A stretch of 36,903 bases of DNA, from the IMG/VR virus record IMGVR_UViG_3300018055_000003, positions 1 through 36,903 of that record. One strand, written 5' to 3'. The DNA comes from a virus. Numbering within the stretch: the first letter of the stretch is position 1; each line of letters opens with the position of its first letter. Shown one piece after another: positions 1 through 33,235 of the stretch. The position numbers were made by a program, and so were the translations under genes. The notes beneath the pieces were generated by a model. It searched no databases, was not told the origin of the DNA, and saw only the letters and a list, made by a program, of their open reading frames with translations.

Positions 1-123
1 ACGTGCACCAGGCGCTTGTAACGCGGCCCATTCCGCCGGACCTGGCGATCCCACGCCATGTTCCCGCCCGCGATCATTTCATCGAGCACGCGCTCGATCA
101 CCGGCGCGGGCCTTCTATCGAAC
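1..123. repeat. Terminal direct repeat, copy 1 (circular overlap)
   Basis: These 123 bases are identical to 36781-36903. The minus-strand gene at this point continues in frame from base 1 onto base 36780, so the two ends are the same locus of a circular or circularly permuted molecule. The length could be an assembly overlap; the sequence alone cannot show a physical terminal repeat on virion DNA. Confidence 0.95.
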
Positions 124-287
124 AAGTCCACCGCGCGATCCTCCATCACAGGGATCAGCACGAACTCCAGATCATGCGGCTCCGGGCGCTTGCGCCGCAC
201 CGACCCGGCCACCTCGATGCGCTCGCACACCGGCCCCAACCGTTCGATGAGTTTGCCCGCCAATTCCTCAGCCATCGCCAGTTTCAT
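1..287 (-). CDS. PolX-like nucleotidyltransferase, N-terminal part (continues at 36780-36432)
   Basis: This is the first part of a 211-residue protein whose gene crosses the circular join (287 nt here plus 349 nt at 36780-36432, a whole number of codons). Visible motifs are the family X nucleotidyltransferase signature GSVRR (residues 28-32) followed by HDLEFV, giving acidic residues D39 and E41 where DNA polymerase beta relatives usually have DxD. The start at 287 has a GGAGGGG ribosome binding site 6 nt upstream and overlaps the previous stop as ATGA, so it is probably translationally coupled to the nuclease-like gene. Family members add nucleotides in DNA repair; a repair or end-processing role is inferred. 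E replacing D at the second position leaves activity uncertain. Confidence 0.8.
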   Translation of the reverse strand, partial: MKLAMAEELAGKLIERLGPVCERIEVAGSVRRKRPEPHDLEFVLIPVMEDRAVDLFDRRPAPVIERVLDEMIAGGNMAWDRQVRRNGPRYKRLVH

Positions 288-829
288 GCCAACCCCTCCA
301 GCGCAGGCTGCCAGGCATTGCACCCAACCGACACAAATTCATCAATGATCTCCCATGCTTCATAAAAGCGCAACCATTGCCCGATAGTGTCACGCGGATC
401 GTGCCGAGAGATTTCGATCTTCTTTCGTCCGCGCATCTCGGCAAACGGAATCACGAACCAATGCAGCGCGCCGTCCAGGCATCCCCACACGAGCACGTCA
501 GCCCGATTGCTATGCAGATTGGCCTGATAGCACTCCCCGTTCCACGTGGCCGCCTTGACCTCGACACGCACGCCCTCGACAAGTAAATCGTACTTCGCCT
601 GGTGTGGCGTCCCGGTCACGGAATAGCCGCGCAGTTTGAGCCGTTCGCGCACGAGCTGCTCGATCTGGCGCGCCATCACCCGGCGAGGATCGAGCCGCCG
701 CTCAGCTCGACGTCCGGTCAATTCATCGGGACATTCGGGCCGTGGGCCGCCACGCCGAGAGGCCAGCCACTCGTCGTGCAAAAACTTTTCTAGTTGGGCG
801 TCGGTGATCGTTGCCATTGCCAGTTTCAT
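284..829 (-). CDS. PD-(D/E)XK nuclease-like protein
   Basis: A 181-residue protein. The central segment reads GTPHQAKYDLLV, then VRVEVKAA, then FVIPFAEM: an acidic residue followed about ten residues later by E-V-K, the core of restriction-endonuclease-like folds (Mrr or Holliday-resolvase type). The N-terminal third is charged and probably helical. It lies between a small hypothetical gene and the PolX-like gene and shares ATGA with the latter, so a joint role in DNA processing is plausible. The start at 829 has only a weak GAGAG-type site. Its first codons (MKLAMA) repeat the first codons of the PolX-like gene nearly base for base. I call the fold from motif spacing only. Confidence 0.6.
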   Translation of the reverse strand: MKLAMATITDAQLEKFLHDEWLASRRGGPRPECPDELTGRRAERRLDPRRVMARQIEQLVRERLKLRGYSVTGTPHQAKYDLLVEGVRVEVKAATWNGECYQANLHSNRADVLVWGCLDGALHWFVIPFAEMRGRKKIEISRHDPRDTIGQWLRFYEAWEIIDEFVSVGCNAWQPALEGLA

Positions 830-839
830 AGAGCAACTC

Positions 840-1166
840 TCAAAACGTGTATTCCCTGATGAGTTCCTCTGAGTAGGTCAGTTCATCGAATGGAATTTCT
901 CGTTCTTGCAGAATGCGCTTGAGAATTTCAATCTTTGCAAGAATTTCAGCTTCAGAGTTTCCCTTGTCGGCAAACTCCTTATAGATCGTGTAAAACTCTG
1001 TTTGAAGAACTCGCTCAGAAAACTCCTTCTTGCTTTGAGCGATAACGATTTCAAGAGATTGGACATGACCGCTGTAGTGAATGAACACACAATAGTTCGT
1101 GTACTGATTGACCATGTGGGCCAATGCCATCGCTCGGATAACCAAATCATCTCGTGTGGTTTTCAT
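840..1166 (-). CDS. Hypothetical protein
   Basis: A 108-residue protein (MKTTRDDLV...) with no family I recognise. The start at 1166 is preferred over 1193 because GGGGAG lies 5 nt upstream of it. The protein is mostly charged and probably helical after residue 40, with a Tyr/Asn/His-rich stretch near residues 15-35 and no membrane segment. It sits between the parB-like gene and the nuclease-like gene in one transcription unit. A dyad element of the dispersed family (1175-1204) fills the gap just upstream of its ribosome binding site. Confidence 0.65.
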   Translation of the reverse strand: MKTTRDDLVIRAMALAHMVNQYTNYCVFIHYSGHVQSLEIVIAQSKKEFSERVLQTEFYTIYKEFADKGNSEAEILAKIEILKRILQEREIPFDELTYSEELIREYTF

Positions 1167-4392: not shown

Positions 4393-5535
4393 CTACACCA
4401 TCTCGAAAAACTCACCCACTGTTTTCCACAGCGGGTGGCGCTCGCGGTCAATGCCCTTCAAATAGATCATGGTCGTGTTGACGTTGCTATGATGCAGCAT
4501 CTGTTGGATCTGGATCAGGTCGGCGCCCTTGTGCTTGAGAAAAAGCGCCGCCGTGTGCCGCAGCGTGTGCGTGTGGATGCGCGTCTCGTCCAGCCCGGCG
4601 CGCCGGGCAATGTGTTTGACGATCTGGTTGACGCGCGCACCGGTCAGGCAGCTCGGCCCATCCCTGGGCGGCAATGTGCGGCCGTTCTTCGCTGCCTTGC
4701 GCTCGGCCAGGCGCGTGCCCACATCCGACAAGGGCACAAAGATAATGTCATCCTTGCCCATCGTGTCCAGCCGCTTGGCCGCCTGCAGATAAACGCAGAT
4801 CGCCTTGTACGCTGCTTCGGGCAATTCGTCCACGCCCTGCTTGGCCTTGCTCTCCCACCGGTAAAACACCACCTGGCCCTTGACCTCGATCGCCCCCCAC
4901 GTCATCGTCGCGATTGCCGCCGAGCGCTGGCCCGTCGCAAAGATGGTCGAGATCAGCGCATAGTCGCGCAGGCCCGCCACGCTGGCGCGATCGCACGCCC
5001 GCAGCATCGCCATCATTTCATCCTCGGTCAAGCCGCCCGCCTTTTCGTTCTCGTAGGGATTGATCTTGGTGCGCGTGGCGGACTTGACGGGATTGCGCCC
5101 GCACAGGAACATTTCGATGCGCGGGTTGCGCGGATCGGGAAACGAGAATTTGTGACATAGGAACTCGTACAGCGAGGATAGCCCGGCCAGGCGCAGGTTG
5201 ATCGTTTGTTCGGAGAGGTCCGAGGCGCGCATCGAATTCTGCCAGCCGATCACCTGGCTGCCCATCACGCGCCACATCGGAAAGCGGTCGCCGATGAACC
5301 CGTGGAATTCATCCACCGAGCGCTGATACGCCCGGCGAGTTTGCGTGCTGATCGTGTGGCCGTGCGAGCGCCAGCCGCCCGCGATCCATTGCTCGAACGC
5401 GATCGGCCATATCTGCGCCTTGATCGCATCCTCGTCGCGGTCGTCCACGCCCAGGCCGGGCTGGAGCGGTGCGTCGGGCATCACGACCCAGGAGGGAACC
5501 AGTTCGGTTCTAGTAGCGGTTGCAGTTGCCAGCAT
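4393..5535 (-). CDS. Tyrosine recombinase (second of two)
   Basis: A 380-residue tyrosine recombinase. Residues 60-130 form the SAM-like core-binding domain; the catalytic domain carries R204 (FATGQRSA), K230, the HTLR box H323/R326, H349 and the tyrosine Y358 (NTTMIYL). All catalytic positions are present, so it should be active. The ATG at 5535 is preferred over the one at 5538 because GAGG is 6 nt upstream. It is encoded in the minus-strand early block, away from attP and opposite in direction to the attP-linked integrase, so it more likely serves dimer resolution, inversion or another exchange. No recombination-site pair was identified near it. Confidence 0.85.
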   Translation of the reverse strand: MLATATATRTELVPSWVVMPDAPLQPGLGVDDRDEDAIKAQIWPIAFEQWIAGGWRSHGHTISTQTRRAYQRSVDEFHGFIGDRFPMWRVMGSQVIGWQNSMRASDLSEQTINLRLAGLSSLYEFLCHKFSFPDPRNPRIEMFLCGRNPVKSATRTKINPYENEKAGGLTEDEMMAMLRACDRASVAGLRDYALISTIFATGQRSAAIATMTWGAIEVKGQVVFYRWESKAKQGVDELPEAAYKAICVYLQAAKRLDTMGKDDIIFVPLSDVGTRLAERKAAKNGRTLPPRDGPSCLTGARVNQIVKHIARRAGLDETRIHTHTLRHTAALFLKHKGADLIQIQQMLHHSNVNTTMIYLKGIDRERHPLWKTVGEFFEMV

Positions 5536-5543
5536 CATGCACC

Positions 5544-5864
5544 TCACGAGATGGGGCTGATCATCAGCCCCAGCCGCTTGCGGATAGCGATGAGCGCCCG
5601 CTCGCCGCGCTCCGTTTGAAAAATGTCGCACAGCACCACGTTCTTGCTCTGCACGCGCGCCGCGTTCGCCAACGCCACCAGCGCATCGAGCGCGTCCAGC
5701 CGGTTGAGGCCGCCCACCACGCACTTGTCCAGGTCAATCTCGACGATCTGCTCTTCGGTGTTGCGCCCCAGGAACGAAGCCAGGAGCGTGCGCTCATCGC
5801 CGCCATACACTTGCGACATCGCCTGTTCAATGAGCTTGCCCAAATCCACCTTGATCTTGTACAT
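5544..5864 (-). CDS. Hypothetical protein
   Basis: A 106-residue protein starting MYKIKVDLGKLIEQAM, with GGAG 6 nt upstream. It alternates helical (NRLDALDALVALANAARVQ) and strand-like (EEQIVEIDLDKCVVGG, KNVVLCDIF) segments, suggesting a small alpha/beta protein. There are no membrane segments or zinc motifs. It lies between the zinc-finger protein and the second recombinase and ends 6 bp before the latter's first possible start. Function unknown. Confidence 0.65.
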   Translation of the reverse strand: MYKIKVDLGKLIEQAMSQVYGGDERTLLASFLGRNTEEQIVEIDLDKCVVGGLNRLDALDALVALANAARVQSKNVVLCDIFQTERGERALIAIRKRLGLMISPIS

Positions 5865-7392: not shown

Positions 7393-7845
7393 ATGAAAGG
7401 CCGTAGCCTCGCAACCATTGTCCTGATCGTTCTCGCAGCCGGCTGTGGAAACTCCAGCGCGCCAGCCGCCAGTCCCACTCAAGCGCCCGCGCCGCCGAAG
7501 GTGGCGCCAACGTCGGCCAGCTCGTCGCCCGCGACGGAAATCGCCCCACCAACCGAAACGCTCGCGCCCACGCAAACCCTCACGCCCACGGCCACCTCAA
7601 CCTACACTTTCACGCCGACGCGCTTTGCAGCGCCCACCGCGGCGAGCAACACATCCACGCCCACGATCACACGCGCTCCGGCCACGTGGACGCCCGTACC
7701 CACCCTGCGACCGCTGCCCACGGCGCCGGCGGGTGGGGGAGGGGCCTGCTGCAAACATTGTGGCACAACCAGCAAGCCCTGCGGCGACACGTGCATCTCC
7801 AACAAATTCACATGCAACACGCCGCCCGGCTGCGCATGCCCGTAG
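7393..7845 (+). CDS. Thr/Pro-rich lipoprotein with Cys-rich C-terminal domain
   Basis: A 150-residue protein. MKGRSLATIVLIVLAAGC is a lipoprotein signal peptide with lipobox LAAGC; AGGGG lies about 7 nt upstream. About 85 residues of Thr/Pro/Ala-rich stalk follow, then a compact domain with eight cysteines (CCKHC, CGDTC, FTC, GCAC). The product should be lipid-anchored outside the cell with a disulfide- or metal-bound head. It sits between repressor and integrase on the plus strand, a typical position for a lysogenic-conversion gene, so a surface role in the lysogen such as exclusion or adhesion is inferred. Its TAG stop lies inside a GTAGGGGCGCGG repeat. Confidence 0.8.
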   Translation: MKGRSLATIVLIVLAAGCGNSSAPAASPTQAPAPPKVAPTSASSSPATEIAPPTETLAPTQTLTPTATSTYTFTPTRFAAPTAASNTSTPTITRAPATWTPVPTLRPLPTAPAGGGGACCKHCGTTSKPCGDTCISNKFTCNTPPGCACP

Positions 7846-7918
7846 GGGCGCGGTCACCGCGCCCGTACACCGCGCCCGTACACCGCGCTTATTTTGTGAA
7901 GCTTGATTACAACAATAG
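7842..7918. repeat. GC hairpin repeat, 13-bp tandem and 30-bp dyad
   Basis: GTAGGGGCGCGG (7842-7853) pairs with CCGCGCCCGTAC (7857-7868); ACCGCGCCCGTAC is then repeated in tandem (7856-7868 and 7869-7881). The dyad element at 7889-7918 (TTATTTTGTGAA ... ATTACAACAATAG) follows. The lipoprotein stop codon is inside the first hairpin. Confidence 0.75.
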
Positions 7919-8021: not shown

Positions 8022-8073
8022 ACTCGAGTGTCCGGAGGCGGTCAACTCGCCAAGTCTCAAATGGGGTTCAAGT

Positions 8074-8107
<34 letters not shown>

Positions 8108-8113
8108 ACGACT

Positions 8114-8156
8114 GGTGAACACAAGAGATTGACCCAAGGCCGCTCTTGTGTTCACC
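8114..8156. repeat. 14-bp perfect inverted repeat beside attP
   Basis: GGTGAACACAAGAG (8114-8127) and CTCTTGTGTTCACC (8143-8156) are separated by 15 bp, just after the tRNA-derived core. No T-run follows. It could be a recombination-protein site or a leader hairpin in the integrase transcript. Confidence 0.7.
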
Positions 8157-8293
8157 GGTCGACCAAAATCCAACCTGCCCCCCAACAGGTGAGCATCCAA
8201 CTCGCCCCCGCTTCCGGTTCAAAAAAAGCCAAAAACCAATTACCTGAACGAGTTCCACATTATCAGAACAAGCGTTCTCGAACCGGAGGCCAA

Positions 8294-9223
8294 ATGAATA
8301 CCCTATCACTCTCCAGATCAATTGAAGGATTCTTTCTCGAAGCCGGCGCCCGTCGGCTCAGCCCGAACACGATCCGCTTCTACCGCGCCATCCTGGTGCG
8401 CTTCCAAAAGTTCTTTGACGCCGATCCCCTCATCGGCGCGATCACCAAGGCCGACCTGCAGCGCTTCATGATCAGCCTCGATCACCTCAGCAAAAAGACG
8501 GCGCTCGGCCATCACGCCGGGCTATCGGCGCTGTGGCGCTGGGCGCTCAGCGAGGAGCTCGTCGAGCGCAACCTGGTGCGCGAGATCCCCGCGCCGGTCC
8601 CCGAGCAGCACACCATCATTCCCTTCACGCAGGTCGAGGTCAAGGCGCTGCTGGGTGCCGTGGACAAGAGCATGCCCTATGCCAGGCTAGGCCAGCGCGA
8701 ATGCCAGCACAGCAACCCGGAGGCGCTGCGCAATCGCGTGATCATTTACTTGCTGCTCGACACCGGCATTCGCGCGTCGGAATTGTGCGGGCTGCGTGTG
8801 CGGAATCTCGATCTCAAGGCGCGGCACGTCACGGTGATGGGGAAGGGGAGTAAAGAGCGGACGATCTACTTTTCAGAGATCACGGCCAAGGTCATCTGGC
8901 GCTACCTGGCGCAGCGCTCCGATGAATCGCTCGACGCCTGGATGTTTCCCGCCTGGCATTCCACCAGCCCGCTCGACGCGCGCGATCTCTACCACGTGCT
9001 GCATCGTATCGGCCAGCGCGCCGGCGTTGCCGACGTGCACCCACATCGCTTTCGTTATACGTTCGCCATCCAGTACCTGCGCAACAAGGGCGATGTGTAC
9101 ACATTGCAGCGCATCCTGGGCCACACCACGCTCGACATGGTCCGCCGCTACCTGGCCATCGCTCAGACCGATATCGAAGCCGCCCACCGGCTCGCCTCGC
9201 CAGTGGCCAACTGGAGGCTTTAA
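8294..9223 (+). CDS. int: Phage integrase, tyrosine recombinase
   Basis: A 309-residue site-specific recombinase. The N-terminal SAM-like domain spans about 5-95; the catalytic domain has R160 (DTGIRASEL), K184/K187 (GKGSKER), H251 and R254 (HPHRFRYTF), H277 (ILGHTTL) and nucleophile Y286 (MVRRYL). The start at 8294 has GGAGG close upstream; a longer frame from 8072 would run through attP and is rejected. It should recombine attP with a host tRNA-Pro gene. Followed by a hairpin (9223-9239) that separates it from the convergent structural operon. Confidence 0.95.
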   Translation: MNTLSLSRSIEGFFLEAGARRLSPNTIRFYRAILVRFQKFFDADPLIGAITKADLQRFMISLDHLSKKTALGHHAGLSALWRWALSEELVERNLVREIPAPVPEQHTIIPFTQVEVKALLGAVDKSMPYARLGQRECQHSNPEALRNRVIIYLLLDTGIRASELCGLRVRNLDLKARHVTVMGKGSKERTIYFSEITAKVIWRYLAQRSDESLDAWMFPAWHSTSPLDARDLYHVLHRIGQRAGVADVHPHRFRYTFAIQYLRNKGDVYTLQRILGHTTLDMVRRYLAIAQTDIEAAHRLASPVANWRL

Positions 9224-11111: not shown

Positions 11112-11651
11112 TCAATTCTTCTTGCAGAACACGACCTCAATATAGGCAGGTGTCACCGTCGCCGTCGCCGCATTCGTCCCCAGCGCCGGATCCGCATAGT
11201 CAAATCCCGAAATCATCTGGTACACCGACCCCGCCGCCCCATTCTGCGACATCGCCGACCCCGCCGCCGTCGCCGCAGAGACAAACTTCGTCACGTCAAC
11301 GATCTGATCCTGCGCCCCCTGGTTCTGATCGTGCCTGTGATGATGCACGCCGCCCGAGTGCGTGTGACTGTGCGAGTGCGTCCCGCCGCCGCCCGTTCCG
11401 CCATAAGTTGCAGCGCCTCGCACAAACAATCCATCCAGCGCGCTCACGCGAGTCCACCCCGATGGGCAAGCCGCATCCGCCATCAAAATGATTCCCTGCG
11501 GAAGCAGCGCATACAGAGAGCCGTCCCCCGCGCCCCCGTCGTGATTGTGCGTGTTACCCAGCCACGCCATATTATCCGTGATCTGGGCATTCCACACAGC
11601 CGCCGTGATGTGCGTATTCGTCGTTTGAGTGACCGGTGTCGACCAGGCCAT
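11112..11651 (-). CDS. Tail collar-like fibre protein A
   Basis: A 179-residue protein. Residues 50-90 (LMADAACPSGWTRVSALDGL, FVRGAATYGGTGG) match the phage tail-collar signature, followed by a His-rich segment (THSHSHTHSGGVHHHRHDQ) that in related fibres binds metal in a trimer. The C-terminus ends AYIEVVFCKKN. It is a clear paralogue of the next gene, with the same N-terminus (MAW..P.T..T), collar and C-terminus, so the pair arose by tandem duplication. A receptor-binding or fibre-tip role is inferred. Confidence 0.75.
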   Translation of the reverse strand: MAWSTPVTQTTNTHITAAVWNAQITDNMAWLGNTHNHDGGAGDGSLYALLPQGIILMADAACPSGWTRVSALDGLFVRGAATYGGTGGGGTHSHSHTHSGGVHHHRHDQNQGAQDQIVDVTKFVSAATAAGSAMSQNGAAGSVYQMISGFDYADPALGTNAATATVTPAYIEVVFCKKN

Positions 11652-11654
11652 GCT

Positions 11655-12188
11655 CTAATCCTTCTTGCAGAACACGACCGAAATGTAAGCGGGCAAGCTG
11701 CTTCCCGCCGTCGCATCACTGGCCGTATCCGCCCCACCGCCCGACGCCGCGCCACTCTGCATCTGGTAGGCAGTTGCTCCACCACCACCCGTCACAGTCA
11801 TCGCCACCCCGTTCGAGCCGGTCGCCACGATCAAATTGGCGCTCGTCGTCTGATTCTGCGCCCCATAGTTCTGCCCGTGCGTGTGAGCCGCCGCCGTGTG
11901 CACGTGGCTATGCGTGTGCGTATCCGCCCCGCCCGTCCCACCGTAGGACGCCGCCCCCCGGATCATCTTGTTATCCCACGCCGAGACCCGCGTCCACCCG
12001 GTCGGGCACGCCGCGTCAAAGATGGCGATGAGTCCAGAGACCACCGCGAGCGCGCCCCCGTCGCCGGCGCCGCCGTTGTGATCGTGGCTCGTCCCCAGCC
12101 ACGTCATGTTGTTCGTGACCTGCTCGTTCCACACGGCGGCAGTTACGAGCGTCCCCGTCGATTTAGTCGCCGGCGCTGTCCATGCCAT
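11655..12188 (-). CDS. Tail collar-like fibre protein B
   Basis: A 177-residue paralogue of the 11112-11651 product: MAWTAPATKSTGTLVTAAVW, then IFDAACPTGWTRVSAWDNKM, then IRGAASYGGTGG, then THTHSHVHTAAAHTHG and AYISVVFCKKD. The ends are most alike and the middle, after the His cluster, most divergent, as expected if the exposed tip is under selection. GGAGGG lies just upstream of the start. Two similar collar proteins could build a mixed or alternative tip. Confidence 0.75.
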   Translation of the reverse strand: MAWTAPATKSTGTLVTAAVWNEQVTNNMTWLGTSHDHNGGAGDGGALAVVSGLIAIFDAACPTGWTRVSAWDNKMIRGAASYGGTGGADTHTHSHVHTAAAHTHGQNYGAQNQTTSANLIVATGSNGVAMTVTGGGGATAYQMQSGAASGGGADTASDATAGSSLPAYISVVFCKKD

Positions 12189-12189
12189 T

Positions 12190-12699
12190 CTACCCTCCCG
12201 CCGTATTGGTAATAGATGTTATCCGTAGGGGCGCGGTCCCCGCGCCCTCGCCCTCGCCCTCTGCCCCGAGTCCATGCTCGGCATTCTCCATCTCGAGATC
12301 GCTCAGCGATTCCCCCGGCGCCCAATTCCGATTTCCCATCTCGCGCCGGAGCAGCGCCGCTTCAATCGCCGCTCGATCGTCAGGGAACACAACCTGCATC
12401 ACATGTCCGCCATTCTCGTCATTCCCGCATGACAGACAATAGAAAATCGGCTCGCCCGGATCGGCCTCCTCAGCCCCGCTGCACGCCGGGCAGCGCACGA
12501 TCCAGCGGCCATGATTGATCTCAGCCTTCACAGCTCCCTGCACGGACACCTTGAAAGGCAGCCACATCGCGCCGGCCTGAGTCGCCAACCAGGCGACTAG
12601 CTTCGTGCCATTCTTGAGGGCGCCAATGGTATCGCGTGCCGTTCCTATCCTGGCGCCGCGGCCGGTCTGCGCAAAAACAATTCTATCGGTTGCGTCCAT
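12190..12699 (-). CDS. Zinc-ribbon protein in tail region
   Basis: A 169-residue protein. Residues 65-95 carry two CxxC pairs (CPACSG and CLSCGND) about 16 residues apart, a zinc ribbon, followed by HVMQVVFPDDRAAIEAALLRRE. AAGGAACGG lies just upstream of 12699. The last 25 residues (GEGEGAGTAPLRITSITNTAGG) are translated from a GTAGGGGCGCGG hairpin and a dyad element, so the repeat has extended or replaced the original C-terminus. Its role among the tail genes is unclear. Confidence 0.65.
   Translation of the reverse strand: MDATDRIVFAQTGRGARIGTARDTIGALKNGTKLVAWLATQAGAMWLPFKVSVQGAVKAEINHGRWIVRCPACSGAEEADPGEPIFYCLSCGNDENGGHVMQVVFPDDRAAIEAALLRREMGNRNWAPGESLSDLEMENAEHGLGAEGEGEGAGTAPLRITSITNTAGG
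12202..12247. repeat. Composite repeat inside the 3' end of a gene
   Basis: A dyad element (about 12202-12229, TATTGGTAAT ... GTTATCCGTAG) joined to GTAGGGGCGCGG (12225-12236) and CCGCGCCC (12240-12247). It lies inside the reading frame of the zinc-ribbon gene and 14 bp upstream of the start at 12188. Confidence 0.7.
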
Positions 12700-17652: not shown

Positions 17653-17701
17653 CTATTCTGTGAACGTTGATTACCAATGTAGGGGCGCGGTCTCCGCGCC
17701 C
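17653..17701. repeat. Composite repeat: 30-bp dyad plus GC hairpin
   Basis: The dyad at 17653-17682 (CTATTCTGTGAA ... TTACCAATGTAG) overlaps the hairpin GTAGGGGCGCGG (17679-17690) / CCGCGCCC (17694-17701). It lies 11 bp upstream of the major tail protein start, next to its GGAGG. Confidence 0.75.
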
Positions 17702-20546: not shown

Positions 20547-20616
20547 CCCTGGGCATTCCCAGGGGCTATTCGTGTAATACCAGTTATCTGTAGGGGCGCG
20601 GTGCCCGCGCCCCTAC
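20547..20616. repeat. Hairpin, dyad element and GC hairpin in series
   Basis: CCCTGGG-CATT-CCCAGGG (20547-20564); a 28-bp variant dyad at 20566-20593 (CTATTCGTGTAAT ... GTTATCTGTAG); and a perfect 12-bp hairpin GTAGGGGCGCGG / CCGCGCCCCTAC (20590-20601 and 20605-20616). These fill the gap upstream of the gene at 20531. No T-run supports termination. Confidence 0.75.
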
Positions 20617-20913: not shown

Positions 20914-21843
20914 TCAGTTCGTGCTAACGGGTCCGACCTGGACCCACTTCGCACCGATGCAGACCAGAGGCAACGTGTCATACTGCCCAAGCGTTTGATT
21001 TCCGGCCAGCACGCCATTCGCCGTGTCGGTGATCACCACGTCCGCGTTGATGCTATTATAGAGAATGGTCTTTTGTCCGCTCGTGCACGCGCCCATCTCA
21101 GCCCCCAGCGCTGCCGCCGGCGTCAAGGTCACCAGGGATGCCGTAGGCGTCAGAATTCCACCGTCGGTCGGCGTGATACTCGCTGAGTTGTAGATGTTGA
21201 AACCGGAAAACGTTGTAACGCCGGCAACGGCCAATGTGCCTCCGACGCTTGTATTGCCACTGGTATCGGCGACGGTGAATTTGTTAGTATCCATCGCCAA
21301 CCCGCCATTGAGCACTGTCGCGCCAGTGACCGTGAGATTCCCGCCAACAGCCACACCCGCGGTTGTTGTGGCAATGCCGACCAGGCTCGTCGCGCCAGTC
21401 ACCGTGAGATTCCCGCCAACAGCCACCCCCGCGGTTGTTGTGGCAATGCCGACCAGGCTCGTCGCGCCAGTCACCGTCAGCGTCCCCGTGATCGCCGTAT
21501 TATTCCCGATCACGCCGCCATCCACGGTCGAGCCGCTCACGGCCAGGCTGCCCGCAATGGTCGTGTCACCCGTCGCGCCATCCACAGAAAACTTTGACGT
21601 CGTCCCCTGGTTGCTGTAGACTCGAACATCGCCGCCATTCCAGATCTCGACGCAATTCCCGGTCGGCCCCACGCTGTGACACTTGATGCCGCCCGATATC
21701 AGCGCCTGCGATACCACCGATGGCGGCGCCAGCGGCGACGTCGGCGGCGCCGGGATCGGATACGTCACGCCCAGGAATCCGGCCACCAGCACCGCGATCA
21801 CCACGATGATCCACGCGATGTACTTTTTATTCGTCTCGTTCAT
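20914..21843 (-). CDS. Membrane-anchored fibre-like protein with tandem repeats
   Basis: A 309-residue protein starting MNETNKKYIAWIIVVIAVLV, with AGGAG upstream of 21843. One N-terminal transmembrane helix (about 8-28) and a Pro-rich spacer lead to a domain with IKCHSVGPTGNCVEIWNGGD and to beta-helix-like repeats (GNLTVTGATSLVGIATTTAG). Two 24-residue repeats are almost identical at the DNA level. The C-terminus has two cysteines and ends LVCIGAKWVQVGPVSTN. A transmembrane anchor is unexpected for a virion protein directly downstream of the capsid gene; it may be a host-surface protein or a fibre assembled at the membrane. Confidence 0.65.
   Translation of the reverse strand: MNETNKKYIAWIIVVIAVLVAGFLGVTYPIPAPPTSPLAPPSVVSQALISGGIKCHSVGPTGNCVEIWNGGDVRVYSNQGTTSKFSVDGATGDTTIAGSLAVSGSTVDGGVIGNNTAITGTLTVTGATSLVGIATTTAGVAVGGNLTVTGATSLVGIATTTAGVAVGGNLTVTGATVLNGGLAMDTNKFTVADTSGNTSVGGTLAVAGVTTFSGFNIYNSASITPTDGGILTPTASLVTLTPAAALGAEMGACTSGQKTILYNSINADVVITDTANGVLAGNQTLGQYDTLPLVCIGAKWVQVGPVSTN
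21317..21478 (-). repeat. 72-bp tandem repeat within a fibre-like gene
   Basis: The same sequence recurs at about 21317, 21389 and 21461, a 72-bp (24-codon) period with few differences. It encodes the repeated beta units of the membrane-anchored protein. Such repeats can expand or contract by slippage. Confidence 0.8.
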
Positions 21844-24643: not shown

Positions 24644-26716
24644 CTACCGCATTCCCGCCGTCATCGAACACCTGCAATCGATGTCCTCTTCCGCCAACCC
24701 AATCTGCCCCGGCGCCGGGCCGCGCCCAGCTCCCACCTCGAAATCCTCATCCAACTTGCGCGTCTGTCCATGCGCATCCACGTGCGTCTGTCGCGTGCGA
24801 TCGTCGAGTCCGGCCAGCCACGTCTTCGTCGCCACGACGTCGCTCTGCCGCCACGCCTCCAGCGTCCCGCCGTTCGCCGCCCCGTTCACCTCCGTGCGCG
24901 CGATCGTCTCCGGCGTGCTGCGGATCCGCTCTGCCATCACATCTAGCACGCGCTGCTCGAACTGGGCAATATTCTCGCCCGTCGCGATCCCCTCCTGTAG
25001 CGACGACTTCAGTCGTTCCCACGTTGTCTCGTTCACGCGCTGCGCGAACCGCTGGGCGCGCCGCTCCAGAAACCGCGCCACCGCCGGCTGCGCCACGTCG
25101 AACGCCATCGTCAGCGCCAGGTCCTCGAGCGCCTGCTGCCCCGCATCCTCCACGATCGTCAGCAGCACCGGCCGCGCCTCTGTCCTGAATGACTTGATCC
25201 ACTGCGCCATGTCGAACGGCTCATCAGCCGCATCCTCCACCGAGCGCGCCGCCCGCTGCTTCAATCGCGCCAGCACGCTATCCTGCTGTCGGCGGAACAA
25301 GTCCACAGTCACGCGCGTCACCTGCTTCTCGTACCCAGTCGTCCGCCGCACGAACCGCGCAAAAAGCCGTTGGTGCTCGTCTGATCCGTACTCGACTACG
25401 CGCGTCTGAGCATGTGTCACGCCCGCCTGCCCGCCAGCAGGGGGTTGCTCCTGGCCAGCCTGCGCAGCAGGGGCTGCAGGCGCTGCAACCGGCGCCACCT
25501 CGCCACTATCCACCGGCAACAAATTCGCCGGCGCCCACCAGACATCCCCCCACGGCACTGGCTTCAGCCCCTGTTCATCGCGCCACTCGTTGATCACGAT
25601 CACCCCGGCGCCGATCTGCTCCTTGGCCCGCGTCCACTGCGCGCCTTCTGCCTCCTGGAGCACGCCGATCTCTGACGCATCGAACTCGGCCACGTCCGCC
25701 TGGTTCGGAAACATCGGCAGAAGCTGCTCGGTGATCTCCGTCGAGATGAACTTGCCCTGCGGCAGTACGCAATTCTCCCAGGCTGCCTTCAGCGCCGAGT
25801 TATAATTTTCGTAGGTGCGCTGGCCGCCGACCAGATCAATCGGCCAATGATACGCCCGGCAAATATCCTCCAGCGACCACTTCAGGCCGCCCAGAAACTC
25901 GGCCTCTTTCGGGTTGAACCCGACCGGCTTGACCTCGGCATCGAAGCGAAACACCGCCCATTTGTGCGACTTGTCCACGCCCTGGAAGCGGCGCTTGATT
26001 GCCTCCTCGATCGCCTTGGCCTGTTCATCCGTGAATGTCTGCCCCGCTCGCGGCGACACCATCCCGCCCATCTGGATGCCATTGTCAAACAAATTTTTGT
26101 TCGACTTCATCCCCGCGCTCGCGTAATCCGCCGCCAGCCGTGCCGCGGCCAGGGGCGACAATGGCGCATACTCGTCATTCGGATTCGGAAGCCGAATCCA
26201 TAAGACCTCAGACGGCCGGTAGGCCACCTCGCGCACGCCATTCAACGGAAGATAATAATAACCTGCGATGTATCGCTCCGGATGCGGGATCACCCGCACA
26301 CGATCCGGCCGCCCCCACCAAATCTCACTCGGCGTCTGCACCCCGCTGTCCCCGCGTTCCAGAAACCAAAACGCCTGGCCCCATAGGCACAGGCTCAGTT
26401 CCGTCATCTCGATCAGCCGGTTGAATGTCCAGAAATCGTTCACCTTCTTGAGCAGCGAATAGAGCGGCCCGCCTGTCACCTGTGACCGATCACCCCGCGC
26501 ATTCAATTTATACAGCGCCAGCGGCAGCGACGAGAGAAATTGTGCCCGCTGTGTCGCGCAGGCATACACGCCGTTGCTCGTGGCGATGTACTGGCCGTAC
26601 TCCGCGGGTGCCCACTCCTCAATCGGATGGCCCCACGCCTCGTCGGACCGCTCCACCACGAGCGGCCCCAGCACAAACGCGCGCATCGCGAACCGAATTC
26701 TATCGATGAGATTCAC
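24644..26716 (-). CDS. Portal protein fused to MuF-like head morphogenesis domain
   Basis: A 690-residue protein with a GTG start, GTGA-overlapped with the upstream gene. Residues 1-400 are an HK97-type portal (EYGQYIATSNGVYACATQRA, GLKWSLEDICRAYHWPIDLV, GGQRTYENYNSALKAAWENC). A Pro/Ala/Gln-rich linker (about 410-440) leads to a helical region and a MuF/gp7-like end: TIARTEVNGAANGGTLEAWR, KTWLAGLDDRTRQTHVDAHG, then DIDCRCSM. The last motif (D-R-T-x2-H with CRC) is characteristic of phage head morphogenesis proteins. Usually these are two genes, so this is a fusion; nothing suggests a sequencing error at the linker. Confidence 0.85.
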   Translation of the reverse strand: MNLIDRIRFAMRAFVLGPLVVERSDEAWGHPIEEWAPAEYGQYIATSNGVYACATQRAQFLSSLPLALYKLNARGDRSQVTGGPLYSLLKKVNDFWTFNRLIEMTELSLCLWGQAFWFLERGDSGVQTPSEIWWGRPDRVRVIPHPERYIAGYYYLPLNGVREVAYRPSEVLWIRLPNPNDEYAPLSPLAAARLAADYASAGMKSNKNLFDNGIQMGGMVSPRAGQTFTDEQAKAIEEAIKRRFQGVDKSHKWAVFRFDAEVKPVGFNPKEAEFLGGLKWSLEDICRAYHWPIDLVGGQRTYENYNSALKAAWENCVLPQGKFISTEITEQLLPMFPNQADVAEFDASEIGVLQEAEGAQWTRAKEQIGAGVIVINEWRDEQGLKPVPWGDVWWAPANLLPVDSGEVAPVAAPAAPAAQAGQEQPPAGGQAGVTHAQTRVVEYGSDEHQRLFARFVRRTTGYEKQVTRVTVDLFRRQQDSVLARLKQRAARSVEDAADEPFDMAQWIKSFRTEARPVLLTIVEDAGQQALEDLALTMAFDVAQPAVARFLERRAQRFAQRVNETTWERLKSSLQEGIATGENIAQFEQRVLDVMAERIRSTPETIARTEVNGAANGGTLEAWRQSDVVATKTWLAGLDDRTRQTHVDAHGQTRKLDEDFEVGAGRGPAPGQIGLAEEDIDCRCSMTAGMR

Positions 26717-26994
26717 AGCACTGGACTCCCCATCTGTGGGAAAATCACCACGCCCACCACCGACCGTTTCGGATCAGGCAATTGGTACGCCGTGTCATTG
26801 AACATTTCTCGCACCATCATCTGCCCGTCGGTCCCGTTCGCCGACAAGACCTGAACCGCCCGCCAGGTAGCCCTGGGCTGCCCGGCCAACCCAATCAGCG
26901 CCAGGACCAGGCCCCCCGCCTGCAGCGCCACGTCAATCTGGTCAATCGGCGCATCAACCCGCTCGCACTCCACACTCTGTCGTTGTGGCCCCAT
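26713..26994 (-). CDS. Small protein upstream of portal
   Basis: A 93-residue protein starting MGPQRQSVECERVDAPIDQI; AGGAG about 7 nt upstream of 26994 decides this start over the longer frame. It has one hydrophobic stretch (VALQAGGLVLALIGLAGQ) and a C-terminal strand-rich half (RSVVGVVIFPQMGSPVL). It couples to the portal gene by GTGA overlap. No family recognised; probably a minor head or portal-associated protein. Confidence 0.6.
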   Translation of the reverse strand: MGPQRQSVECERVDAPIDQIDVALQAGGLVLALIGLAGQPRATWRAVQVLSANGTDGQMMVREMFNDTAYQLPDPKRSVVGVVIFPQMGSPVL

Positions 26995-27004
26995 CGGATC
27001 TCCT

Positions 27005-27034
27005 CTATTCATGTAATGCGCGTTCACCAAATAG
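27005..27034. repeat. 30-bp dyad element, left flank of plus-strand cassette
   Basis: CTATTCATGTAAT ... GTTCACCAAATAG, 11 bp upstream of the start at 26994 and next to its AGGAG. With the copy at 27888-27917 it brackets the two plus-strand genes. Confidence 0.8.
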
Positions 27035-27104
27035 ACTGAATCAGCTACGAGAATCGCTCGCAAACATTGCAGAAAACGAGTTCCCCAATTTCAATTTTTG
27101 CCTC

Positions 27105-27133
27105 TTGACAAATCGCGCTATATAGCGTATAAT
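27105..27133 (+). promoter_or_regulatory. Consensus sigma70-type promoter with palindromic spacer
   Basis: TTGACA (27105-27110), 17-bp spacer, TATAAT (27128-27133): both boxes perfect. The spacer contains the 12-bp palindrome CGCTATATAGCG (27116-27127), placed where a bound repressor would block polymerase. It drives the two plus-strand genes that follow. Confidence 0.9.
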
Positions 27134-27164
27134 CCTAATCAGGAAATCAAGAAAGGACAAAAAA

Positions 27165-27407
27165 ATGAACGAGCAAGAAACCCACGACTACCTGAAAAAG
27201 AATGGAATCCGCTCTCAAGATATCAATCGCGGACATGGGGGGATTATCGTGACGGTATGGTTTGTTGGCCGAAACCGAACCCCGGAAGCCGTGCGAAACA
27301 CTCTCGCAAGCGAGGGATTCAAGGATGGCGGCGGAATCCCTGGAACGATGGAAAATTGGCAGAAGACTTTCACGATGCCATCTGCCCAAGAAATGATGAA
27401 TTGGTAG
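27165..27407 (+). CDS. Cassette gene 1, hypothetical protein
   Basis: An 80-residue protein starting MNEQETHDYLKKNGIRSQDI, with AAAGGA upstream. N-terminal helix, a strand (GGIIVTVWFVGRNR), a helix (PEAVRNTLASEGFKD) and a polar tail (WQKTFTMPSAQEMMNW), suggesting a small alpha/beta fold. First gene of a two-gene plus-strand cassette, 9 bp before the second. Its own strong promoter means it can be expressed in the lysogen. A toxin-antitoxin-like or exclusion role is possible but not shown by any motif. Confidence 0.75.
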   Translation: MNEQETHDYLKKNGIRSQDINRGHGGIIVTVWFVGRNRTPEAVRNTLASEGFKDGGGIPGTMENWQKTFTMPSAQEMMNW

Positions 27408-27416
27408 GAGATCAAA

Positions 27417-27839
27417 ATGGATATCATTGGAAGCAAGAAATTTGAATCTATCGAGAAAGCCTGGCAAGCCGCCAGTGGCCCCAACACACCTGAAGCATGG
27501 GCCGAAATGCTCAAGTCGCTTGGCGTCGCTCCCGAAGATGTTTGCCGTTCCACCTACATTTACGTATCGAGTGAGCGCGAAATCATCGCCTGCAACAAGC
27601 GCAGCCATCAAAGCGATCCTGCCGATGAGGAGCGCAAAATCGGCTATTTATCGGCCTACACCATAAATCTCAATGGAATAAAAAAGGCAATGGGCGGCGA
27701 GCCGATCAACGCGCCCGGAACGCGCCCAGACACATCGCTCTATCTTGGCGATGAGCGCCGCGCATGGCTCAAAGAGCATGGAGGAATCCAGCCAACGGTC
27801 CAAGCCATGATTGATCGCGCCATGAAGCGCAATCCGTAG
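27417..27839 (+). CDS. Cassette gene 2, hypothetical protein
   Basis: A 140-residue protein starting MDIIGSKKFESIEKAWQAAS, with AGGAG upstream. Helices around 8-40 (PEAWAEMLKSLGVAPEDVC), strands (RSTYIYVSSEREIIACNK) and a C-terminal helix (IQPTVQAMIDRAMKRNP). No recognised domain. Co-transcribed with gene 1 and followed by a strong terminator, so the cassette is an autonomous unit inserted against the direction of the late operon. Confidence 0.75.
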   Translation: MDIIGSKKFESIEKAWQAASGPNTPEAWAEMLKSLGVAPEDVCRSTYIYVSSEREIIACNKRSHQSDPADEERKIGYLSAYTINLNGIKKAMGGEPINAPGTRPDTSLYLGDERRAWLKEHGGIQPTVQAMIDRAMKRNP

Positions 27840-27865
27840 CTGATTCAGTTGTCAAAGTTCCAATG

Positions 27866-27895
27866 GGCCGCCAACAGGGCGGCCTTTCTATTTTT
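27866..27895 (+). terminator. Intrinsic terminator of the plus-strand cassette
   Basis: GGCCGCC (27866-27872), loop AACAG, GGCGGCC (27878-27884), then TTTCTATTTTT. A strong rho-independent terminator whose T-run merges into the dyad element at 27888. Confidence 0.9.
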
Positions 27896-27917
27896 GTAAT
27901 TACACTTCACAAAACGG
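27888..27917. repeat. 30-bp dyad element, right flank of plus-strand cassette
   Basis: CTATTTTTGTAAT ... CTTCACAAAACGG, between the cassette terminator and the terL stop. It is in the same orientation as the copy at 27005-27034. Confidence 0.75.
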
Positions 27918-27920
27918 GCG

Positions 27921-29444
27921 CTAGTAGATTAACTTCCCATCCAGCACATTCACCAGCTTATTAAACGCACCGGATGATCCATCCCCCTGATCACGAAATG
28001 CCCCGTTCGGAATCGCCGTGATCTCGTCAAGCCACGGGCCATTCCATAGGCCACGCACCAATTTCACATTCCCCGCCTCAGCCTGCGCCGCGAGCGGCTC
28101 CATTCGCACATCCTTGTTGCCGGTGGGTCGTTCGGCATGAACACTAAAACCGGCCAGATTGCGCGTCGTGGACTCGGCAGACTCTTTGCCACCGCTGCCA
28201 GGCTCCTGCTCATGCCAGATCTCCACGTGCCCACGCTGCTGATCCAATTGCGCCGTCTGCTTGATCGTCGTTTCACGCTCCAGCGCCGACCATTGCCCGC
28301 GCACCACGTCCTCGATGAAATACTGGCCGCCCGCCGCCGCCATCAACACGCCCGCTGTAAACGCACCGCCGCCCGCTGTGCCCGCCTTATCCCAATAACG
28401 CACCCGGCGCGCAACGGTGGGCGCAACGTTCACAATCTCAAACCAGCTGCGCTTGAACCGATTCCCCTCCGGTGCCCTGGGCGATCCCTGATACTCGGCG
28501 TTCCACACCAGGCTCCCCACGTCGCGCTTGAGAGAAGCGAGCGCATCAATGCTGAATCGCTTTGGCGCCAGCGGCTCGCCGGGCGCGCGCCCGAGCAGAT
28601 CAGGCTGGCCGGTCGGCAACCCCAAGCGCCGGTCGTTTTCGTCGCGCTCCTCTTGCGTCTCGGCCAGCGCCGGCAGCCGCAAAATCGTCCACTCGTCGCC
28701 CCGCTCGCCGATCAGCCGCCCCGCCAGATCGTCCTCGTGCCAGCGTGTCATGATCAAGATGATCACACCCGCTTCCAAGATGCGCGTGCGAAACGTCGAC
28801 TTGTACCAATCCCACACACGATCTCGATACGTCTGGCTCTGAGCTTGCTCCCAATTCTCGAACGGATCGTCAATGATGCCGAGCATGGCGCCGTGCCCCG
28901 TGATCGGCCCGCCCACGCCGGCCGCCAACATGCCACCGCGCCGGCCGGCGATGCTCCACTCGTTCACCGCGCGCGAATCGCGCGGCGTACCCACATCAGG
29001 AAAGAGGCGCTGGTACTCATCGCTCTCGACCAGGTTGCGCGCCTGGCGCGATTTCGACCCTGCCAGGTCCGCCCCATAGCTGGTCAAAATGATCGGATCG
29101 TCGGGATGACGCCCCAGCCAATATGCCGGCAATCGCACGCTCACCAGTTCGCTCTTGCCGTGCTGAGGCGGCGCGAAAATCATCACGCGCCGCAGCTCGC
29201 GAGCAGCGACCCGGTCGAGCGTCGCTCCCATCAGCTCATGCACCGGCTCCGGTACATATTGGGGGAATGTGAACTCAACAAAATTGAGTAGGTTCGCCCT
29301 GGCCTTGCGCCTACGAAGAAGTTCCTGAGCTGCTGCTTGGGCGGTAATCGATGGACTTGTTCCGCTTTCGACAGTTACAGGAATTACAGAGCGGCTGGAT
29401 GTTAGAGATGCTGTTAGTGCCACCAAGAGAAAGGGGGATAACAT
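27921..29444 (-). CDS. terL: Terminase large subunit (start uncertain)
   Basis: The packaging ATPase-nuclease. Recognisable sequence begins near ELLRRRKARANLLNFVEFTF; Walker A is MIFAPPQHGKSEL, Walker B about MLGIIDDPFENW, and the nuclease domain has VRYWDKAGTAGGG and HEQEPGSGGKESAE. Upstream of the recognisable part the frame overlaps the 3' end of an HNH gene. The ATG at 29444 is a nominal start (507 residues) and GTG at 29423 an alternative; neither has a ribosome binding site. The open frame runs to 29879 but is out of family there. The HNH insertion may have displaced the original first codons. Confidence 0.85.
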   Translation of the reverse strand: MLSPFLLVALTASLTSSRSVIPVTVESGTSPSITAQAAAQELLRRRKARANLLNFVEFTFPQYVPEPVHELMGATLDRVAARELRRVMIFAPPQHGKSELVSVRLPAYWLGRHPDDPIILTSYGADLAGSKSRQARNLVESDEYQRLFPDVGTPRDSRAVNEWSIAGRRGGMLAAGVGGPITGHGAMLGIIDDPFENWEQAQSQTYRDRVWDWYKSTFRTRILEAGVIILIMTRWHEDDLAGRLIGERGDEWTILRLPALAETQEERDENDRRLGLPTGQPDLLGRAPGEPLAPKRFSIDALASLKRDVGSLVWNAEYQGSPRAPEGNRFKRSWFEIVNVAPTVARRVRYWDKAGTAGGGAFTAGVLMAAAGGQYFIEDVVRGQWSALERETTIKQTAQLDQQRGHVEIWHEQEPGSGGKESAESTTRNLAGFSVHAERPTGNKDVRMEPLAAQAEAGNVKLVRGLWNGPWLDEITAIPNGAFRDQGDGSSGAFNKLVNVLDGKLIY

Positions 29445-29922
29445 GATCTGGGGACAAATTGGCTTCTTTGCCGCAACAAACACAACGGTTACCGTACTTG
29501 CAGCACAGTTCGTGCCATTCAGCAGCAGTGAAATGAGGGCCAGCGTTAAGCTCACGAGCCCGACGACGATGCCGCGCCGCAGCGAACACTTCTTTGCCAT
29601 GTTCTGTGGATCGATACCAGCGTGCATATTCGCGCTCGCGCTGGACAATAAGCGAGTTCTGCCGACGCTTTGCCATCGTCTTTCGGTTGGCATCCCGCTG
29701 ATATTTAACAGCATCCGGCATAGCACGGCTCGCAACAACGTCAGGGCGACGCATGTATTCGCGTGCTGCGTTCCGATTGCGAACGACTTGCTTCGGAGCC
29801 TGCCGATATTTCCGTATACACTGCTTGCAATAGTGCTGATAGCCATCACGACTCTTGATACTCTTGTGAAATTCACCAAGAGACTTGGTCTGTCTACATC
29901 TACTGCATGTCTTGGTATCCAT
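29311..29922 (-). CDS. HNH endonuclease, free-standing
   Basis: A 203-residue protein. The N-terminal zinc cluster (CSRCRQTKSLGEFHKSI, then HYCKQC) and a basic helical middle lead to an HNH domain: CVCCGKEANLSPDHVIPLSL, GGTNSISNIQPLCNSCN, with D-H, N and paired CxxC. Such proteins often home next to terminase genes and can assist packaging cleavage. It lies between terS and terL and overlaps the terL 5' region in another frame. No ribosome binding site precedes the ATG; a promoter with TATAAT 7 nt upstream suggests a leaderless transcript. The signature is of recent insertion. Confidence 0.85.
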   Translation of the reverse strand: MDTKTCSRCRQTKSLGEFHKSIKSRDGYQHYCKQCIRKYRQAPKQVVRNRNAAREYMRRPDVVASRAMPDAVKYQRDANRKTMAKRRQNSLIVQREREYARWYRSTEHGKEVFAAARHRRRARELNAGPHFTAAEWHELCCKYGNRCVCCGKEANLSPDHVIPLSLGGTNSISNIQPLCNSCNCRKRNKSIDYRPSSSSGTSS

Positions 29923-29929
29923 GCAACAG

Positions 29930-29958
29930 ATTATACAATGTTAGTTTGGTAAAGTCAA
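29930..29958 (-). promoter_or_regulatory. Promoter for the HNH gene (near-leaderless)
   Basis: Minus strand: TTGACT (29958-29953, overlapping the terS stop), 17-bp spacer, TATAAT (29935-29930). The expected transcription start, about 7 nt on, coincides with the HNH start codon at 29922. Confidence 0.75.
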
Positions 29959-30524
29959 GCCTGCTCGTCCTGGCTTCCTGCGGCGATGGCAGCGAGTTCA
30001 TCATCGCTCAGCTCGTCGGCCCGCTTGACCTCAATCGGGCCGTCCCCAGCTCCCACCAGGTGCAGCGTGTGCTCATCGCGCGTGATACTGACAATGTCAT
30101 AGTAAAGTTTATAGTGCCCCGCGCTGGCCTCGCCGCCCTCCAACTGTTGAATGAGCGCCATGTCCACATCGGGCCCGAATTCATCCATGCGCCGGATGCG
30201 CGCCTGGCGTCCCATGTCGCGCAGGCTGATGGGGGGCTCGCCATACTCTTGATTCTCCCATTTGTCGAGCGTCTCGCGTGAAACGCCCAACCAATCCGCC
30301 AGCGCCGAGAGTGTCCCCAGGTTTCCCGCCTTGCGCGCGTCCTTGGGCAACGACCACCAGGCCGGGATAAACGCCTTGTCTTTTGGCACGCCGCAGGCGA
30401 CAAAGTACCGCAGCCTATCCCGCCATTCCACGGGCGCTGATTTGAGCCACTCGTCGAGTTCGGTGAGAGTTTTGCGTTCGAGCAGCTTGCCGGTTTCATC
30501 AAAGAGTTTCCCTTGCCGTGTCAT
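29955..30524 (-). CDS. terS: Terminase small subunit (putative)
   Basis: A 189-residue protein. Residues 68-95 (LSALADWLGVSRETLDKWEN) form a helix-turn-helix as in small terminases, and the central part (SLRDMGRQARIRRMDEFGPD) is helical for oligomerisation. The acidic C-terminus (RADELSDDELAAIAAGSQDE) is typical for contact with the large subunit. It lies immediately before terL apart from the HNH insertion. The start at 30524 has only a weak purine-rich site. Confidence 0.75.
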   Translation of the reverse strand: MTRQGKLFDETGKLLERKTLTELDEWLKSAPVEWRDRLRYFVACGVPKDKAFIPAWWSLPKDARKAGNLGTLSALADWLGVSRETLDKWENQEYGEPPISLRDMGRQARIRRMDEFGPDVDMALIQQLEGGEASAGHYKLYYDIVSITRDEHTLHLVGAGDGPIEVKRADELSDDELAAIAAGSQDEQA

Positions 30525-32350: not shown

Positions 32351-33217
32351 TTACGTTCTTACTGGTGCGTTTACATCAGTAAACCATTCTCTAGCATCGA
32401 ATCCATGCGCCTCAAGCCAGCGATCATGCCGCACCTGGAGCACGTCGGCGAGCTGCTTGACCTGTGCCGGGCACAGCAGCGGCAGCCGCGTACGCACGGC
32501 CACCACATAAATCACGTGCGGCTCGACCCCCTGCCGCCGGACCTGGCCGACCTCATGCGCGACAAGCCGGTCAAACCCGCCGCCATGATGGTGCAACTGG
32601 CCATCCCCATTCGAGCGATTGACGCCCGCAACGGCCTGCTTGCCACAGCCGATCTGACCGGCCAAGCTCGGCGCCGTCCAGCGCTGGTCCGGAGTCCACT
32701 CGGATTTCTCTTTGCGATGATCGCCCTCGCGGATGATCTCCCAAATCGCCCACGCCACACGGCCCAATAACGGCCGCCAGAAACTCGACTCATACGACGT
32801 GACCGGATACCATCCGATCTCCTTCATATCAGGCATTGCCGGCAGGACGAATGGCCGTGGCGCTGCTGACAATCCGTTCCTTTCTTCATCCGTTGTTTCC
32901 ATTGTGGTAATGGGACTTGTCGAAACAGAAGCCACCAGGTCGCCCCCGCTCGCGTGTTCCTGGACGACAAATCGCACAGCCACCGAGCGCCCGACGATCC
33001 TATCTAGCGTCCGCAGCACCATCGTCTGCAAGCGGTTCTCCAGCCAATCCTTGGCATAGAGATTGTGCACGCCCACCGTGAACATTCCATCCTCGTATGC
33101 CACCAGGCTCGAGCGCGCCAGCCAGGTATTATACGTCGCGCCCGTCAACTGCAACTGCAACTCGCCGAGCGCAGCCTGCCAGATCTGATCAGGTGGTAGA
33201 GGCTTTGAATCAGGCAT
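32351..33217 (-). CDS. DnaA N-terminal domain protein, putative replication initiator
   Basis: A 288-residue protein starting MPDSKPLPPDQIWQAALGEL. Residues 11-85 match DnaA domain I (IWQAALGELQLQLTGATYNT, then WLARSSLVAYEDGMFTVGV, then YAKDWLENRL), used by DnaA to bind itself and helicase loaders. The AAA+ and DNA-binding domains of DnaA are absent; a linker and a different 160-residue region follow (RPLLGRVAWAIWEIIREGDH, QVKQLADVLQVRHDRWLEAH). This gene overlaps the iteron repeats, so it is likely the phage initiator or helicase-recruiting protein. The linker contains a copy of the GGAAAGGAACGGATT-type repeat (in changed form). Confidence 0.75.
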   Translation of the reverse strand: MPDSKPLPPDQIWQAALGELQLQLTGATYNTWLARSSLVAYEDGMFTVGVHNLYAKDWLENRLQTMVLRTLDRIVGRSVAVRFVVQEHASGGDLVASVSTSPITTMETTDEERNGLSAAPRPFVLPAMPDMKEIGWYPVTSYESSFWRPLLGRVAWAIWEIIREGDHRKEKSEWTPDQRWTAPSLAGQIGCGKQAVAGVNRSNGDGQLHHHGGGFDRLVAHEVGQVRRQGVEPHVIYVVAVRTRLPLLCPAQVKQLADVLQVRHDRWLEAHGFDAREWFTDVNAPVRT

Positions 33218-33235
33218 ATTTGTCCGGTTTGTCAA

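Follow-up and report, generated by a model that had tools for sequence, protein, structure and literature searches.

Between terL and the portal region of the window, as we call the whole 36,903-nt stretch of viral DNA analyzed here, lies a compact cassette at positions 27005-27917 (Table 1). As the earlier note had described, two genes on the plus strand run against the late operon, with a promoter, a terminator, and a 30-bp dyad on each side in the same orientation; all of these were found again. The promoter matches the sigma-70 consensus TTGACA-17-TATAAT at 12 of 12 positions, while the terminator stem is followed by TTTCTATTTTT. By number alone, neither element stands out: a sigma-70 scan of the window at a 9/12 threshold found 1 site (1.4 expected, and thus not rarer than chance), and a terminator scan found 3 (3.3 expected). 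The promoter therefore owes its weight to being a perfect match and to recurring in each of the ten related cassettes described below, and a hairpin with a T-tail lies at the same place in most relatives of the cassette. Thus, as read from the DNA, the cassette appears to have its own promoter and terminator. Its GC content is 50%, compared to 61% in the flanks. We found in addition a perfect 15-bp inverted repeat (IR), ACTGAATCAGCTACG, which had been overlooked before and which frames the cassette genes. Within the window, no other such pair has a spacing of 100-1500 bp (mean of 0.1 and maximum of 2 in Markov simulations).

Table 1. Positions of the cassette, its neighbors, and related features in the window.
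Feature	Position	Strand	Remark
Portal gene	24644-26716	-	
g95	26713-26996	-	94-aa gene
Left flanking dyad CTATTTGGTGAACGCGCATTACATGAATAG	27005..27034	-	gene-boundary element, shortly ahead of the g95 ribosome-binding site
5' IR ACTGAATCAGCTACG	27035..27049	+	core GAATCAGCTACGA conserved in related cassettes
5' adaptor spacer, IR to -35	27050..27104	+	55 bp; ~79% identical to both G012 cassettes
Promoter TTGACA-17-TATAAT	27105-27133	+	
Operator palindrome CGCTATATAGCG	27116..27127		putative; in promoter spacer; core retained in G005, whose last gene is of the same type
ORF1 (P0001)	27165-27407	+	80 aa; cargo without family match
ORF2 (P0002)	27417-27839	+	140 aa; last gene of cassette
3' IR CGTAGCTGATTCAGT	27835..27849	-	holds ORF2 TAG stop codon, 27837-27839
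3' adaptor TGTCAAAGTTCCA	27850..27862	+	13-bp linker, conserved outside IR
Intrinsic terminator	27865..27895	+	stem 27865-27885; 8-bp stem with 7 G-C pairs, 5-nt loop, T-rich tail
Right flanking dyad	27888..27917	-	directly after terL stop codon
terL	27921-29879	-	Pfam Terminase_6N/6C, PHROG 38
Dispersed 30-bp dyad YTATTYTGTGAAnnnnnATTACnnnAATAG	1175, 3840, 7889, 16183, 17653, 20566, 21887, 24609, 27005, 27888, 30603, 32036		
Tyrosine integrase gene	4393-5724	-	
Tyrosine integrase gene	8072-9223	+	

The window is a 36.9-kb virus contig assembled as a circle on account of a 123-bp end repeat; the end repeat of its relatives measures 127 bp and is probably an assembly overlap. Because it encodes terL, a portal with a Mu F-like domain, head genes, two tyrosine integrases, an HTH regulator, and a ParB-like protein, we regard it as a temperate tailed phage. 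Its portal shares less than 60% identity with the nearest named phages (22-29% among the matches listed). In the class to which an Anaerolineae MAG belongs, one genome has a 48% match to the portal (E 1e-195), and tRNA-like sequences in genomes of this class match the tRNA-like attachment fragment from another cassette-bearing phage, G012, at up to 94%. These matches, looked for in that one class, suggest that the host may belong to the Anaerolineae.

Scanning of IMG/VR viral contigs for the IR, and then for the IR plus a -35 box, returned ten cassettes in nine phages including the window, the others being G005, G006, G011, G012 (two cassettes in tandem, a and b), G013, G014, G015, and G016, as well as a fragment almost identical to the window phage. 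The G016 cassette is cut by the contig end, which leaves nine complete ones. Other IR hits were set aside as lacking a partner IR or lying within coding sequence, and the additional promoter-IR matches L204-L206 were rejected since they have no partner IR and a coding context. A looser IR/promoter scan of viral contigs added no cassette, and two pattern scans of cellular genome contigs, as well as a scan of 396 genomes of the class containing G017, revealed no paired IR.

All cassettes follow a common order, in which a dyad and the 5' IR are followed by 38-56 bp, a TTGACA box with a palindrome in the promoter spacer, differing small genes, and a last gene, which usually encodes a DNA-binding protein; the stop codon of this gene falls within the 3' IR, and a terminator and a dyad come after it. 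The motif TTGACA-17/18-TAnnnT was found inside the 5' IR in 10/10 cassettes, at spacings of 55, 52, 38, 56, 54, 44, 50, 43, 55, and 38 bp. An open reading frame stops within the 3' IR in all nine complete cassettes; the G006 case is doubtful, as the reading frame there has only 52 aa and lies beside an excisionase-like gene that stops earlier. The stop is usually NCG-TAG, which gives the protein Ser or Pro as its last residue. Next to the 3' IR comes the linker TKTCAAAGTTCCA, in this or a variant form, usually succeeded by a hairpin and T-tail, while in G012a a tRNA-like fragment intervenes ahead of the hairpins. This fragment, which resembles a T-loop and an anticodon loop (L141 5028-5092), is located between the two tandem cassettes near the integrase and is probably the phage attachment site. 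Allowing one mismatch, the 12-mer GAATCAGCTACG occurs in each complete phage solely as an inward pair at the cassette ends; G012 has one perfect pair as well as a second 5' IR, the 3' partner of which lacks 1 nt. The 12-mer was never found in G001, a relative of the window phage. Judged by these sequences, it is the 15-bp IR, and not the dyad, that is common to all cassettes.

Such a distribution might also be expected if the IRs were regulatory sites of an ordinary moron, serving as activator sites, silencers, or loop anchors and having no role in mobility, because the 5' IR precedes every -35 box at the distances given above and the IR pair is found nowhere else in each phage. However, the spacing to the promoter is without helical phasing, and the other copy is found right where the operon ends, at the stop codon, and coincides with the break points of core exchange described below. 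We thus consider a purely regulatory function unlikely. The more specific idea of a fixed activator site at the 5' IR was dropped because of the unphased spacing.

The cassettes occupy different sites. In the window, the insert lies between terL and g95, while those of G005 and G015 are placed between a tail-region gene and a glycosyltransferase, that of G013 beside the major capsid gene, that of G014 among neck/adaptor genes, and those of G012 beside the integrase; the majority oppose the adjoining late genes. Empty counterparts are known for three of these sites. The comparison with relatives that the earlier note had proposed showed that the insert is absent at the window site in L010, L011, and L020, where the gap between terL and g95/portal amounts to 68, 94, and 3 nt, respectively. 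Likewise, the G014 site is empty in the window phage (G000) and G001, and the G011 site in G006, L006, and L015. G001 is 84% identical to the window over g95 and the portal and also has no insert, but since its terL is non-homologous, it does not offer a clean empty site, and L010, L011, and L020 are better ones. The replaced terL block, which corresponds to window positions 26995-30030 in phages otherwise ~84% identical, has one of its edges at the dyad beside the cassette.

Pairwise comparisons of the cassettes revealed a mosaic structure. The window and G012b share positions -21..78 and 801..883 but not the core; the outer 101 bp are 79% identical, and the 83 bp comprising IR, terminator, and dyad are 89% identical. 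Between the window and G005 the relation is reversed, as the operator/start region and the end of the last gene (82..135 and 680..828) are shared, while the outer parts are not. G005 and G015 are related phages that carry the cassette at the same site, with flanks 84% and 78% identical and with different cargo; their cores have zero DNA similarity between the 3' IR and the -35 box, and the alignment breaks off within the 3' IR at one side and in the -35 region at the other. G013 and G016 have a common left flank and differing promoter palindromes. Thus, the joints cluster at TTGACA and at the 3' IR.

The dyads provide a record of where cassettes came from. A matrix of the window-type dyad (score >13) has 18 matches in the window, counting both strands and weak copies, and 17 in G001; in the unrelated G012 it has exactly 2, and both flank cassette b. 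Similarly, the G005-type dyad is present 16 times in G005, 14 times in G015, and once in G014, at the G014 cassette. These phage-specific counts indicate that the cassettes brought boundary tags of the donor lineage along. The proposal that the locus is a moron-type insert acquired between dyads is thus strongly supported, given its absence at the window site in relatives and the recurrence of the dyad-bracketed unit in G012. The different cargo in different phages and the GC contrast noted above are also what is expected of a moron acquired horizontally.

From the alignments we read a common architecture, presence and absence of the insert, different sites, swapped cores, and transfer from dyad to dyad. 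The cassette is likely to be a modular, self-regulated moron, an exchangeable insert of temperate phages in or beside the late gene cluster. Its 5' adaptor would consist of the dyad, the 15-bp IR, and ~40-55 bp up to the -35 box; the exchangeable core would comprise the operator in the -35/-10 spacer, at least one small cargo gene, and the last gene, usually coding for a DNA-binding protein; and the 3' adaptor would be made of the IR that supplies the stop codon, the 13-bp linker, the terminator, and the dyad. Host sigma-70 RNA polymerase would transcribe the cassette, presumably in the lysogen, independently of the phage late genes, with expression kept low by binding of the last-gene protein to the spacer palindrome, while the terminator would shield the opposing late operon from cassette transcription. 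The entire dyad-to-dyad unit would move between phages, and crossovers in its short, conserved ends, at the 3' IR on one side and in the -35 region on the other, would exchange the cores. As the mechanism of joining and the enzyme involved, we infer that phage or host homologous or annealing recombination is most likely. A point against this explanation is the length of the repeat, as 15 bp is little for ordinary homologous recombination. Alternatively, the IR pair and the adaptors might form a new phage-borne mobile gene-cassette system, in which a dedicated recombination activity acts on the IRs and loads one or another autoregulated operon into a standard socket, specific to a group of temperate phages. 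Such a socket would have a role comparable to that of integron cassettes, which it would fill without attC sites, and we regard its existence as rather unlikely.

Another possibility is site-specific recombination, in which a phage tyrosine recombinase integrates or exchanges cassettes at the IRs, or at the IR plus the dyad. The window carries two tyrosine integrase genes with relatives in G001, G005, G006, G012, G014, and G015, and break points indeed fall at the 3' IR. However, the integrases are equally present in G001, which is without the IR, whereas G013 has a cassette but yielded no homologue of either one. Moreover, on the 5' side cores are swapped at the -35 box and not at the IR, and all cassettes have one orientation, so that inversion is not seen. 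Site-specific recombination of this kind thus seems quite unlikely. An invertible segment was likewise rejected, given the identical orientation of all cassettes relative to terminator and dyads.

The 15-bp IRs could instead be the ends of a non-autonomous transposon mobilized by a transposase in trans. Passenger genes located between short IRs, with no transposase gene within the cassettes, at differing sites and in differing genomes, are reminiscent of the mobile insertion cassettes (MICs) MIC231 and mic-qnrD, which likewise carry passenger gene(s) and their own promoter (PMC3913671). In contrast to these, the nine complete cassettes, judged by eye, have no target-site duplication beside the IRs, and the conserved linker and terminator, and sometimes the dyad, extend beyond the 3' IR, which is therefore not the terminus. 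The cassette thus fails two defining features of MICs, terminal IRs and target-site duplication. In addition, cores are exchanged inside fixed ends, and no insertion sequence with such ends was found. A transposon origin is therefore very unlikely, and we retain the exchangeable moron as the preferred explanation.

The dyads themselves are not specific to the cassette. The pattern TATTNNTGTAATNNNNNTTCAC has 9 matches in the window compared to 0.27 expected, and a weight matrix yielded about a dozen strong matches; almost all of these lie between genes, in many cases 5-35 bp ahead of a start codon. Other versions of the dyad occur in relatives, such as the G005/G015 type AGTATCAGTAATnnnnnTTATTC with 14-16 copies. 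A role as late-gene regulatory sites is possible. In their dispersal, phage specificity, and location upstream and near start codons, they resemble the start-associated sequences and extended SAS of cluster K mycobacteriophages (PMC3203893), although the sequences are unrelated and the window dyad also brackets a mobile insert. The suggestion that the insertion had duplicated the dyad found no support, as the two flanking copies are only ~67% identical and thus look like two different gene-boundary elements rather than a fresh duplication. Dyads as general joints of module shuffling were also discarded, because only 3 of 32 edges of homology blocks between G000 and G001 fall at dyads (P = 0.19, no enrichment). 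Five hairpins of the form GTAGGGGCGCGG(N)CCGCGCCC were found at window positions 3850-3888, 7826-7864, 12209-12247, 17663-17701, and 20574-20612, and several of them adjoin a dyad.

The palindrome in the promoter spacer, which is present in each cassette, is grouped by the type of the last gene. We found CGCTATATAGC with the P0002 type (window and G005), GTGATACAATGT with NikA-like ribbon-helix-helix proteins (G012a, G013, and G015), TGTATATACATT with the G011/G014 type, and AACCCAACCGGTTGGGTT in G012b, with a near copy in the cut-off G016. The NikA-like domain was detected by Pfam in the last genes of G012a and G013 (E 4e-9 and 2e-8) and was also recognized in the G015 homologue. The natural reading of this covariation between palindrome and regulator would be autorepression. 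The C-terminal 41 aa of P0002 are 80% identical in G005, and an AlphaFold model of the C-terminal piece has two helices (pLDDT 70). Based on the residue pattern and these two predicted helices, P0002 may be a ribbon-helix-helix-like DNA-binding autorepressor, which is an unproven guess. P0002 matched no Pfam, PHROG, or NCBIfam family, and its profile comparison with the NikA-like group failed. A structure search, which had been suggested earlier as a check, gave no PDB match with the low-confidence P0002 model and thus no relative of known structure. P0002 was not found in named phages and plasmids, nor was the NikA-like regulator found in phages, and a distant-relative protein search with the C-terminal domain of P0002 returned just the two loci already known.

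ORF1 and ORF2 could act against competing phages as a defense, exclusion, or toxin-antitoxin cassette, a function compatible with that of an exchangeable moron and suggested, as far as defense and exclusion are concerned, by the earlier note. Inserts of this kind, which are autonomous, antisense, and low in GC and bring exchangeable cargo into late operons, would resemble the sites where phages keep such genes, and a tightly repressed promoter would suit them. However, neither P0001 nor P0002 has a match in PADLOC, Pfam, PHROGs, or NCBIfam, and we consider this function possible but doubtful.

By the definition in the available text of PMC2629481, the cassette is a moron. Like the morons of lambdoid and P22-like phages covered there, it is an insert between operon genes that would be expressed independently, with cargo that varies by phage. 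The closest working analogue is the ant moron of P22 (immunity I region) with its repressors Arc and Mnt; according to the same text, it too lies in the late operon and includes small repressors (PMC2629481). The cassette family differs in its defined 15-bp IRs, in the 5' and 3' adaptors common across phages and sites, and in its core swaps; no such ends are described for P22-type morons in that text (PMC2629481). The source also suggests that successful moron insertion may be extremely rare (PMC2629481), and the cassette family bears on the question of how phage genomes acquire morons. With its defined ends, empty sites, swapped cores, and donor-revealing dyad tags, acquisition becomes traceable and testable. 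A limited literature search found no description of shared IR ends combined with universal adaptors and core exchange, and the novelty of IR ends with core exchange is thus provisional. In T4-type phages, the mobile piece itself is reportedly a promoter/stem-loop element, whereas the family described here occurs in temperate phages and comprises a whole, presumably autoregulated operon whose ends are IRs. As far as its title conveys, the report on mobile regulatory cassettes of T4-type phages (Arbiol et al. 2010, cited in PMC3797505) concerns small regulatory elements that mediate module shuffling. The combination of IR and promoter spacing also offers a handle for searching uncultured phages for small accessory genes, among which there may be genes for exclusion or defense.

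Several further features were observed elsewhere in the window. A DnaA N-terminal-domain protein and the ParB-like protein (32351-33235 and 1205-3028) are conserved in G001, G005, G006, and G015. In G001 (L130, 2342-2718), the homologue of the integrase at 4393-5724 is split between alignment residues 65 and 63 by ~375 bp, which is an insertion or gene remodeling. A late gene contains a 72-bp tandem repeat (21317-21486), with copies 1-2 being 97% alike and a third partly matching. Finally, two adjacent paralogous genes carry a 134-bp direct repeat (11521-11654 and 12058-12191) that is 72% identical at a spacing of 537 bp.
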